The position numbers and the translations under genes are program-made. Of a stretch of DNA of 64,000 nucleotides, positions 60,303 to 64,000 are shown piece after piece. Every line of letters begins with the position of its first letter. Within the stretch, counting starts at the first letter, position 1. The stretch comes from Schizochytrium sp. TIO01 (Eukaryota; Sar; Bigyra; Thraustochytrida; Thraustochytriidae): positions 2,527,102 through 2,591,101 of the forward strand of contig SMSO01000025.1 in the NCBI GenBank assembly GCA_004764695.1, in the 5' to 3' direction. The notes beneath the pieces are model-generated. The model saw only the letters and a list, made by a program, of their open reading frames with translations. It did not search any database and was not told the DNA's origin.

Positions 60303-63300
60303 ATGGGCGGCAGAAATTCCCGGTACGCGGGTTCGTTTCATCAACGCCCAAGTCGACACGCATGGAGCAAAATCCAAGATGTGAACTATGACGACGAAGT
60401 TGAGGAAAACAGCGATGATGATTACGCATGGGACGTAGATCGGCGCGTTCTAGACGAGGAGGCGGATTGGCCACGTATGTGTCCGCTTATTCACTTGAAT
60501 ATCCAAAAGGATTTTCCACTCGAGAAACAACGATCTCTCGTCCGTGCCATGTATAGATTTTGGCAAATGAGCTTCGTCTCTTTACTAGTCAACTTCGTCG
60601 GCACAATGGCCACTCTTCTCACATCAAATGTGACAAACCCGTCAACCATGTCAACGAGCTTCATTATTGCAATCATTTATTTGTTTGCTGAGTTTGCTCT
60701 GGTTTTCCGCCCAGCGTAAGTTGTAATGTTTTGTAAAATGCTTCCCCAATCGATTAAAATGCCATGGTTACGAAGTCTAGCTAGCTTAGAATTCTGTATT
60801 ATATTATGCTATGGAACCAAATCAAATAGAGATGAGCAGCTCGAGCTAACTTTCCTCGTATTCAATTTACTCACAATGGAATTTACACAAAACAACAAAT
60901 GTTGCTTTGTCAAATCCTCTTTTTTACTGACGGTGCATGAATATGGTTATACCTCTTACCTTTTCATTTTACAAAAATACAGGTACTGGGCACTGCGTCT
61001 AGAGTCGAACGTTCTCTTTATCTGGTCTTACATCATGATTGTCGCATTGTTTGCACTCTTTGGTTTTCTACTCTCCCAGGCGCTCGGCCTTGTTAGCGTT
61101 CTAGCTGAGCCTCTGTCCCCCGGAAGCAGCCTTCCGGTGAAAGTGAACCCTATCTTCCCGGTTACCATGTTTAGTATTTTTGCTGGTCTCGCCCTGGTCA
61201 ATATCGTATGGCTTATTTACTTTTTCAGCCAGCTTTTCAAATTTCACACCATGAGTGACAAGAAAAAGCTTGAACTCTACAAAAAACAACGCCGGAAGCC
61301 GTGGCTTGCAAAATGGTTTGGTGGTGGCAATGAAGACGGTCTTCTTGACGATTCGGGAAGTGGTAAACCGAAAAACGTTTGGCCGTGTATTATGCAATAT
61401 GAGCAGGTGGATCGCGACGTTATCGACTCGGATGATGAAGATGATAAAAAAGGTGGCAAGAAGAAGAAGAAGAAGAAGCCTCCCTCTGAAGCACGTCAGA
61501 TGCTTACTATTCCTGGAACCTTAGCTCTTTTCACAACAGAGCGCAAGCTGACCTTTCGATCAGAAGAGGCCATCTTCAACAATCTTTTCAAGGTGACTGT
61601 CATGCTCATTAACATTAGTGCTATTAAAAAAGTAGGTGCTACGACAGTGACTATCATGGAAAACCTCAGTGAAGAAGCCTTCGAAGAAGATAGGAAGGAG
61701 TATCGTACCATGCAAGCTCGTTGCTCTTCTGTTGAACAAACCTTTCGTGAGATTAAGGTCGAGTTTGATACCGCACAAAGCCGCGACGAATGCCTTAAAA
61801 AAGTGACTTCTGCCTGGAAAGCAGTTAAGAAGAAGGAGAAGATTTATCTTGCAATGGATGAAGAGAGCCTCCGTCAGATGCGTCTTCGCATGAGTCGTCG
61901 AGCCACAGAGCGTGCCTCTCAGCACCTTTTGACTCACAAGGACTGGAAACTCATGGTCAGTCTTGTATACCGTCGCACATACAAAGCAGGTATGCTGATT
62001 CTCTCCAAGGGTACCCACTTTCAACATCTATTCCACGTTACGGAAGGTGCGGTCACAATTTATTTGGAAACTTCGCAAGAAGCAGCCAAACGTGGCGGGG
62101 GGGTCTCTGTAATGGATGAGGATGAATTCGATTTGCAGTCAGCACTTTTCCCGGCTACTGATCAGGATCATCTCATGGACACGATTCGGGAAGACGAAAC
62201 ATTAAATCAGGTGAACATGAATCGCGCCCTTAATAGCGGCCTTGATATTCATGATAATACTACTCCAGTCTACTACACAATTAAGTTTGAAAAACGAAAG
62301 CTAGGATTTTCGTACATGAAGAAAAAACGTTCGTACAATCTAGCTGATTTCGAAGATTTGTCTCAGAAACACTACCAAACTGTGATGGGACGCCGAGCCC
62401 AGTCCCGACGCACTTTTAAGAATAACTATGCAGCTGTGGTCCATAGTGTCAAGGATGGAAGTGACGCCGCTCGTAAGGGTGTGCAAGCCGGCGATGAGTT
62501 GGTCAAGGTTGGTTTTTTTGATATCGAAGAGGCCGAGCTGTCCCAGGAAGGTATCACGTCCTTCATTCGTGATAACCGCTATCCTCTCAATATGACGTTC
62601 CGTCGTCCTCCCCGTATTGATTTCCATACCGATGAAGCTGGATTTGTTACACCTGATGCGAATTTAGTTCCCACAGAGGTTCGACAGGCTATGCGTGAGC
62701 ACGATCAGATAGAAGAAGACTATGGTGCTATGCCCACTGTCATGCTTGCCCCTATTCAGCCGAGCTCTCTGACCAGTTCCAGAGCATCCATAATGAGTGG
62801 TAAAATTGGTTCAGCTTCTGTGCTCAGTGGTGGCCAAGATGAGCCTCGTTTGCTGAGTGCTTCCGCTCATCCTTTTGGCACTGGGTATGACACAAGCGAT
62901 GAGGAGGATGACGAGGAGGATGACCACCTTGTGGGTCTGCAGCCAGATGATGGTGACCTTATTTCGTTTGATGATGACCCTTATATCCGTCCGAAGCAAC
63001 CTGGTTTGCCTACAGAGAGTCCACAGGAAGACTTTTCGATGCGTCCGCGTAGTGTAGCACAACAGCGGATGGCTTCACGAGCTCAGCAAGACACTAGCTT
63101 TGCTGCTTCGTCTCGTGGTCGTGGGGGGTCTACATCCGCTGCAGCGATGTCTGCAAACACTGGTGGTCCTCGCGGGGGAGTCTTTGAGATGTCCCGTCTC
63201 GATTTGGCTGAAGAATTTGCAGCTCATCAAGATGATTTCCGGACCACCACCGGTGAAGTTACCGAGTTTCAAGCACATTCTGCACCTCTCATGGAATCTG

Positions 63301-64000
63301 ATCCCCGTCGTTTGTCTGATCTAAACCCCTTCACAGAAGCACAATTACGCCGCGCTGGCCACTACCCAGCACCGAAGGGGGATGGTGATGATGATGGTCT
63401 TGTAGCGGTCAGACCCTCTGGCGGTGGGCTTCTGGCTCGAGGCCGAGCCTTTCTGTTTGGCCATGCATTTACCTACGACAAGCTTGAAGAAGATGAGATG
63501 CGTCGCCGCATGGCTCCGATTGAACCGTCCCACCCAGAGTCACTTGCAGACTCTATTTCTATTATTGTGGAGGGTGACGATGACAGGAATAGCTACACTG
63601 GCATGGCTGCCGGTGAAGACGGCGGGATGTTCATGGAAGAGGATGAGGATGAGGATATCTTTGCATCCACACAAACCTACGAACCTGTTGGACGTTATGA
63701 AAAGGGAGATACATTTGGTATTATTCCCTGGATTCTTAACCATCCGGTCTCAGTGGTGCAGCTTACCGCAAAGACCGATGTGACTTTGCATATGATCGAT
63801 GTCTCCGAGCTTTCGCGCCTGTTCCGTCGCAATCCAACTCTTGCCCTGGCATTCTTCAAATATGTCGCATCGGCAATTGGCGAACGTGCCGATCGTGATG
63901 AAGAAGTCCTTTGTGACCAAATCTCTGATAATCTTAAAGACCGTGATGCTAAGGTGGCAACCAACAGTCAGCTGACCCGCCTGCTAGACAACAAACCAAT
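60303..64000 (+). CDS. SCAMP-like tetraspan protein fused to GRAM, split CNB fold and PDZ domains; exons 60303-60715 and 60983->64000
   Basis: The spliced frame gives at least 1,143 residues and is still open at the window edge. Residues 55-225 follow the secretory-carrier-membrane-protein (SCAMP) pattern: DWPRMCPLIHLNIQKDFP, then four hydrophobic helices (about 88-107, 119-135, 148-170, 199-221) with the post-helix-2 loop VFRPAYWALR in place of the SCAMP WYRPLYGAFR. Next come a Lys run (AAG repeat), a GRAM/PH-like region (about 309-410, IPGTLALFTTERKLTF), and the front half of a cyclic-nucleotide-binding fold (about 465-501, YKAGMLILSKGTHFQHLFHV, then TEGAVTIYLE). A PDZ domain (about 620-682, KGVQAGDELVKV) and acidic linkers follow. 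The back half of a CNB fold is at about 1044-1108 (GDTFGIIPWILNHPVSVVQL, then LFRRNPTLALAFFKYVAS). The Glu and Arg that bind the cyclic phosphate are not seen. I infer a membrane-trafficking scaffold; ligand and function are unknown. Confidence 0.8.
60716..60982 (+). other. Intron of the SCAMP-like gene, 267 bp, GT-AG
   Basis: The donor is CCCAGC|GTAAGT and the acceptor ATACAG|GTACTGG, phase 2. Reading straight through meets a TAA two codons past the last complete exon-1 codon; splicing joins RPA to YWALRLES and restores the conserved SCAMP loop between helices two and three. The intron is AT-rich. Confidence 0.9.

Follow-up and report, generated by a model that had tools for sequence, protein, structure and literature searches.

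A SCAMP-like tetraspan protein of Schizochytrium sp. TIO01 with a long tail carrying cyclic-nucleotide-binding folds, one of them apparently opened by a PDZ-bearing insert

Introduction

SCAMPs are regarded as small trafficking proteins of poorly understood regulation, and their termini are cytosolic. In cyclic-nucleotide-binding (CNB) folds, a cassette glutamate and arginine classically hold the ribose and phosphate of the cyclic nucleotide; PDZ-GEF/RapGEF2 combines a PDZ domain with a degenerate CNB that is not known to bind cAMP. In Dictyostelium, the cGMP-binding guanine-nucleotide exchange factors (GEFs) GbpC and GbpD are described as having a GRAM domain between two CNB domains (PMC11988041), and a second account gives RasGEFU (GbpD) three cNMP domains (PMC1273635). 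POPDC proteins are described as membrane proteins that bind cAMP despite a cassette diverged from that of PKA, with membrane trafficking as one model of their function (PMC6726836), and the trypanosomatid PKA regulatory subunit is described as having its cassette arginines replaced and its ligand changed to purine nucleosides (PMC10959531). Here, we describe a gene of Schizochytrium sp. TIO01 that starts within a stretch of 64,000 nucleotides (the window; C24:2527102-2591101, contig SMSO01000025.1, in a genome of 64 Mb and 37 contigs) and whose product joins a SCAMP core to a tail with CNB, PDZ and weakly GRAM-like regions.

Results and discussion

A SCAMP core and a long tail in one protein

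The gene starts at an ATG on the forward strand and its frame is still open where the window ends. When the contig was extended rightwards (piece L002, whose overlap with the window is identical and whose coordinates plus 59898 give those of the window), a stop codon was reached at window-equivalent 65190-65192. The spliced product of the two exons has 1540 residues, in the order SCAMP core, polybasic stretch, weak GRAM/PH-like region 1, CNB-A with an insert, GRAM-like region 2, CNB-B and CaaX box (CAIL) (Table 1). In a Pfam scan of this full spliced protein (cut-offs 27 bits for SCAMP, 27.5 for cNMP_binding, 23.6 for GRAM and 27 for PDZ_6), SCAMP (PF04144) was matched over residues 55-226 at 54.9 bits (E 1.6e-14) and cNMP_binding (PF00027) in three stretches at 57.6 bits. 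The initial annotation had placed a SCAMP tetraspan, a PDZ domain and a CNB fold in a single protein with a very long tail and had taken the gene to be incomplete in the window; the single frame, the Pfam matches, the rightward extension and the seven homologues of like order described below agree with it on both counts. The location of the PDZ domain inside CNB-A, the second GRAM-like region, CNB-B and the CaaX box are additions to that description.

Homologues were sought in three protein searches, each scoring only about 8000 candidates, the first of them against 5.8 billion proteins. This first search returned eight proteins: the window's own (P0001, one lysine shorter) and seven homologues with 40-72% identity, comprising P0002 from Hondaea fermentalgiana (Labyrinthulomycetes, Thraustochytriidae; 72%), P0003, labelled Durusdinium (51%), and P0004-P0008 (40-52%, where the figures for P0006 and P0007 apply to local matches that cover less than half of the query). 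All eight align from the SCAMP core through to the end of the chain, with P0004 and P0008 lacking the N-terminus, and in whole-protein Pfam scans at E<=1 SCAMP, cNMP_binding and GRAM were each matched in 8/8 and PDZ_6 in 4/8. A ninth protein, P0009 (label MMETSP0964), is a C-terminal fragment of 595 residues. In a tree of all nine, terminal branches are long, reaching 1.2 changes per site, and the eight long proteins keep the architecture across this deep divergence. Because seven homologues besides the window's own protein keep the domain order, chance can be excluded as its cause on these alignments.

An assembly or gene-model chimera, wrongly joining the SCAMP exon to the domains of a separate gene downstream, might be suspected from the intron between TM2 and TM3 (transmembrane helices 2 and 3), from a gene model that rests here on genomic sequence, and from the protein names of P0002 and P0003, the only two named homologues, which are simply SCAMP 3 and SCAMP 4 and leave the tail unnamed. 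However, both parts occur together in the seven homologues, and the intron cuts the SCAMP core itself, so that TM3, TM4 and the entire tail share one exon and one unbroken frame. In addition, P0008 comes from QPX, a labyrinthulomycete parasite of clams. Its label, MMETSP0098, is given as that of a QPX transcriptome (PMC6011583), and its chain begins in TM1 and runs through the CaaX box; one transcript-derived protein therefore spans the position equivalent to the exon junction. The likelihood of a chimera is accordingly negligible.

So far, the fusion can be traced to labyrinthulomycete protists (Hondaea and QPX). Relatives of the tail without a SCAMP core were not found in the three length-bound searches of about 8000 candidates each, apart from the fragment P0009. 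The third of these, made with a rotated tail alignment, returned four proteins, namely three of the known eight and P0009; its query was counted as 808 residues, which placed proteins above about 1414-1416 residues, including five known members, outside its reach. As only about 8000 candidates were scored per search, absence of the fusion elsewhere is not proven. P0003, which bears a dinoflagellate label, groups with P0001, P0002 and P0004 (support 100/98); it is perhaps a thraustochytrid contaminant in the Durusdinium assembly, and gene transfer is less likely than contamination. Among the papers listed by searches of an open-access library, which also covered SCAMPs in connection with thraustochytrids and the ectoplasmic net, none described a SCAMP/CNB/GRAM/PDZ architecture, in line with the initial annotation, which knew of no such family. 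The main text of the Aurantiochytrium ectoplasmic-net proteome paper (PMC12221091) is without the terms secretory, PDZ, tetraspan and cyclic nucleotide.

A CNB fold apparently opened by a PDZ-bearing insert

The first CNB fold, CNB-A, matches the model over its full length only after its two distant halves have been joined. Individually, the halves cover complementary parts of the PF00027 profile (positions 1-36 and 41-89), whereas joined they match positions 1-89 in the window protein at 45.0 bits (E 1.1e-11). The halves were joined in six of the eight proteins, and in 6/6 the match spans positions 1-3 to 88-89 at 32.8-45.0 bits, above the cut-off. Between the halves lies an insert of 418-534 residues across the eight proteins (534 in the window protein), at what, by the usual secondary structure of CNB folds, would be the beta4-beta5 turn.

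CNB-A therefore appears to be one CNB fold opened by an insert that holds a PDZ domain. The large distance between the halves in the window protein might instead suggest two unrelated half-domains, but their complementary coverage and the near-full-model match on joining make this very unlikely. Possible interruptions of a similar kind elsewhere in the genome also speak against it, with six of seven partial-CNB pairs having gaps of 31-141 residues near the profile position of the CNB-A split; these pairs were drawn from 27 hand-picked rows of the 113 CNB rows of the genome, and the seventh alone was inspected individually. This seventh pair, in a TPR-like/CNB frame (C31:4153800-4158200), was considered as a further split CNB and rejected, being by eye two separate CNBs. 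Candidate interrupted pairs include C5:1378165-1378851, C7:493876-494289 and C30:5296230-5296787.

The PDZ domain of the insert was best seen with a family profile (A5) against the PDB, where the top match, to a fragment of a PDZ tandem, covered 34 of the 127 positions of the profile (E 3.6e-5) and 2omj_A was matched over 60 positions (E 0.0014). In Pfam, the domain stays below cut-off (PDZ_6/PDZ_2/PDZ): the window protein has a sub-threshold PDZ stretch at residues 619-654, and the cut-out from P0008 reached 24.9 bits with PDZ_6 (E 1.7e-5). When the PDB was searched with a single sequence or with the whole profile, the PDZ and CNB matches obtained were all weak. The acidic, poorly conserved linker behind the PDZ domain is probably disordered.

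The second fold, CNB-B, lies beyond the window and passes the PF00027 cut-off (Table 1). NCBIfam TIGR03896 was considered as its identity and rejected, since its score of 46-47 bits falls far below the cut-off of 161 and it reflects a general CNB signal; it has 29 matches in this genome and is also matched in 9/14 control genomes.

Conserved cassettes without the cyclic-nucleotide residues

Both CNB folds have an altered phosphate-binding cassette. In CNB-A, the glutamate position is Ile in 8/8 proteins and the arginine position is Val in six, His in one and Leu in one, while in CNB-B the glutamate position is Val in seven and Leu in one and the arginine position is Ser in all eight. The cassette glutamate (FGE) and arginine (PRAA) are thus found in 0/8 proteins in either fold, in contrast to 28/30 and 27/30, respectively, among the best-scoring 30 of the 113 CNB stretches of the genome, a choice by score that favours canonical domains. 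The absence of both residues weakens the case for classical second-messenger sensing, which the initial annotation had proposed, and rules against the CNBs as canonical cAMP receptors. CNB-A and CNB-B are probably not canonical cAMP/cGMP sensors, though they may still bind cyclic nucleotides in an atypical way.

Conservation is nevertheless higher in the cassettes than in the domains that contain them, with 10/18 invariant positions in the CNB-A cassette versus 33/80 in the C-terminal half, and 13/21 in the CNB-B cassette versus 74/173 in the domain (317/1539 over the entire family alignment); for this reason the CNBs do not look as if they were decaying. This conservation bears on the possibility that the folds are ligand-free structural or dimerisation modules and the protein a passive PDZ/lipid scaffold on SCAMP vesicles. 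Such a role would fit the absence of glutamate and arginine from both CNBs throughout the family, the insert of several hundred residues in CNB-A, and the precedent of the degenerate CNBs of PDZ-GEF/RapGEF2. However, so much cassette conservation seems more than a free structural loop would require, and we consider ligand-free CNBs possible but on balance doubtful.

The genome holds 113 PF00027 stretches at E<=0.001, several of them in multi-CNB frames, and 20 cyclase-domain stretches; CNB proteins have apparently undergone a large expansion in it. These numbers suggest active cyclic-nucleotide signalling and would favour a SCAMP gated by cAMP or cGMP, in which the atypical cassette would bind a cyclic nucleotide and so regulate secretion, in the manner of POPDC, where cAMP is bound with a diverged cassette (PMC6726836). 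Set against this are the contrast in cassette residues between the family and the score-picked CNBs of the genome and the trypanosomatid PKA subunit, in which replacement of the arginines accompanies a switch to nucleosides (PMC10959531), and cyclic-nucleotide gating of this kind is distinctly improbable.

Membrane core, putative lipid-reading regions and candidate anchors

A Kyte-Doolittle scan of the SCAMP part gave four hydropathy clusters (residues 89-107, 117-135, 148-166 and 192-225). The TM2-TM3 loop, which is interrupted by the intron, resembles the E peptide of SCAMP2 (CWYRPIYKAFR), which is reported to interact with PI(4,5)P2 (PMC7906166); its R..YWA.R pattern is found in 8/8 proteins and the proline of the RP pair in 3/8. 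Exon 1 begins with MGGRNS and contains the conserved motif PSRH.W..(I/V)QD, and no NPF repeats occur in the first 60 residues of the six family proteins (of eight) with an intact N-terminus; a single NPF is found further along the chain in P0001, P0002 and P0004. The TM3-TM4 loop, VLAEPLSPGSSLPVKVNPIFPV (residues 177-198), is so highly conserved (13/22 positions invariant) that it suggests a role on the far side of the membrane. The only other SCAMP match of the genome at E<=0.001 is an open frame of 346 residues from its ATG (L003; C6:787990-791439, minus strand), which, judged by eye, is without the R..Y.A.R pattern.

Behind the SCAMP core, a Lys/Arg-rich stretch is present in 8/8 proteins, though more scattered in P0007. 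The GRAM match of the whole protein reached 25.8 bits, with its best stretch (residues 1190-1231) outside the window. In cut-outs at E<=1, GRAM was matched in 3/8 proteins for region 1 and in 8/8 for region 2. The GRAM/PH-like region of the initial annotation was therefore only partly upheld: the signal is found in more family members in region 2, just past the window, while region 1 is weak and both cut-outs of the window protein are sub-threshold. The GRAM assignments of both regions are weak. A genome-wide GRAM search gave one match elsewhere and did not list the fusion gene itself, and its sensitivity was therefore low.

Lipid anchors may be present at both ends of the protein. N-myristoylation requires a Met-Gly start with Ser, Thr or Cys at position 6, and among the six intact N-termini, including that of the window protein, Gly2 is found in 6/6 and Ser6 in 5/6. 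Similarly, the C-terminus ends in CxIL in 9/9 proteins (the eight long ones and P0009), and a CaaX box with a final Leu favours geranylgeranylation. The genome carries one match to N-myristoyltransferase (NMT) and three to prenyltransferase-beta. An N-terminal myristate is probable, and the signalling tail is probably lipid-anchored.

Table 1 Features of the fusion gene and its product in the window and in the rightward extension L002.
Feature	Window position	Strand	Other coordinates	Basis
Exon 1 (N-terminus, TM1, TM2)	60303..60715	+		Open frame; aligned to five further family members with intact N-terminus
MGGRNS, candidate N-myristoylation site (Gly2, Ser6)	60303..60320	+		Conserved residues
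SCAMP core, four hydrophobic clusters, intron inside	60465..61247	+	residues 55-226	Pfam PF04144
E-peptide-like TM2-TM3 loop LVFRPAYWALRLESNV, spans intron	60699..61013	+		R..YWA.R in 8/8
Intron, GT...AG, 267 bases	60716..60982	+		Splice sites and open frame; P0008 reads through the equivalent position
Exon 2, to window end; onward to stop at window-equivalent 65192	60983..64000	+	L002 1085-5294	Open frame
Polybasic KKGGKKKKKKK after SCAMP core	61446..61478	+		Sequence
GRAM/PH-like region 1, weak	61494..61862	+		PF02893, 20.1 bits vs cut-off 23.6
CNB-A N-terminal half, profile positions 1-36	61908..62075	+	residues 447-502	PF00027, 20.4 bits
Motif FDLQSALF at insert start	62127..62150	+		F, D, L, L, F invariant in 8/8
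PDZ domain region in CNB-A insert	62259..62642	+		Family profile vs PDB; Pfam sub-threshold
Acidic, poorly conserved linker behind PDZ	62670..63656	+		15/331 positions invariant
CNB-A C-terminal half, profile positions 41-89	63678..63908	+	residues 1037-1113	PF00027, 21.0 bits
Altered phosphate-binding cassette of CNB-A, GDTFGIIPWILNHPVSVV	63705..63758	+		Alignment of 8 proteins
GRAM-like region 2, beyond window		+	residues ~1161-1301; L002 4152-4574	Cut-out 19.3 bits, sub-threshold
CNB-B, beyond window		+	residues ~1341-1513; L002 4692-5210	PF00027, 31.1 bits vs 27.5
CaaX end CAIL, beyond window		+	L002 5280-5291	C-terminal tetrapeptide

A proposed role in vesicle traffic

The reading we favour, to which we give somewhat better than an even chance, is that of a membrane-pinned SCAMP scaffold with a tail of about 1300 residues, whose CNB pockets have been repurposed and which would gate vesicle traffic. 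As SCAMP topology leaves both ends in the cytosol, the tail would be held between TM4 and a prenyl-cysteine at its two sides, a probable N-terminal myristate being a further anchor, and would lie along the membrane of a carrier of the post-Golgi or endosomal kind. Acidic phosphoinositides may be read by the polybasic and GRAM-like modules and the PDZ domain may grip the C-terminus of a partner, while both CNB folds would bind a non-canonical ligand, leading to a change in the shape of the scaffold. In this way, the protein would control whether vesicles dock, fuse or are recycled.

Several points weigh against this proposal. The GRAM cut-outs of the window protein (20.1 bits for region 1 and 19.3 bits for region 2) are both below the cut-off of 23.6, PDB searches with either region yielded nothing at E<0.1, and the two showed no resemblance when their profiles were compared. 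A borderline fifth hydropathy peak lies at residues 333-351 of P0001, within GRAM-like region 1, and additional borderline peaks occur in P0003, P0006 and P0007. In addition, the strong conservation of the cassettes could be purely structural in origin.

A bolder proposal, which we regard as speculative and improbable as a whole, is that the protein founds a class of vesicle sensors specific to labyrinthulomycetes, doubly lipid-anchored SCAMP-CNB-GRAM-CNB proteins in which the PDZ-opened CNB would mechanically couple the binding of a partner to that of a ligand other than cAMP or cGMP, perhaps serving the flow of membrane into an organelle peculiar to the clade, the bothrosome and ectoplasmic net. 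That a tetraspan has been kept in one chain with two CNB folds, a scaffold domain and putative readers of lipids points to the kinds of input to which a SCAMP might respond. The protein also provides an apparent example of a folded PDZ domain within a CNB barrel, and as its CNB cassettes are conserved without the cyclic-nucleotide residues, the question of a new ligand is directly testable in a culturable group of protists.

Genomic neighbourhood

Just downstream of the window, a convergent frame on the minus strand (L002:5950-8289) encodes an EXS domain (E 6.8e-60), presumably as in phosphate exporters of the XPR1/PHO1 type. Further right, some 78 kb beyond the window, the frame at C24:2669413-2671986 carries two cyclase catalytic domains (E 8.6e-55 and 8.6e-42).

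Comparison with known systems

With the SCAMP family, the fusion shares the four-helix core, matched above the Pfam cut-off, and a basic/aromatic R..Y.A.R loop that resembles the E peptide of SCAMP2. In contrast to the short, sensor-free proteins of that family, it has 1540 residues, with a CNB/GRAM-like/PDZ tail of 1300 residues and a CaaX box. Unlike SCAMP1-3, it is without N-terminal NPF repeats, which are described as likewise missing from SCAMP4/5 (PMC7906166).

The nearest published arrangement, compared by domain order alone, is that of GbpC and GbpD, which have the order CNB-GRAM-CNB in common with the fusion (GRAM being weak here). However, the fusion differs from them in its PDZ-split first CNB, its SCAMP core and its lack of the classical cyclic-nucleotide residues, and it gave no RasGEF, DEP, Roc or kinase match in Pfam at E<=10. 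POPDC (Popeye) proteins are similar in having a cytosolic CNB-like fold with an atypical cassette in a membrane protein, but they have three transmembrane helices and one Popeye domain, for which the fusion had no Pfam match at E<=10. The trypanosomatid PKA regulatory subunit, like the fusion, has CNB folds in which the cassette arginine is replaced, though it is a kinase regulator and its cassette changes differ (conserved Glu for Ala). Finally, PDZ-GEF/RapGEF2, which also joins a PDZ domain to a CNB, is a GEF without a SCAMP core, and its PDZ domain lies beside the CNB, whereas in the fusion it appears to lie inside.

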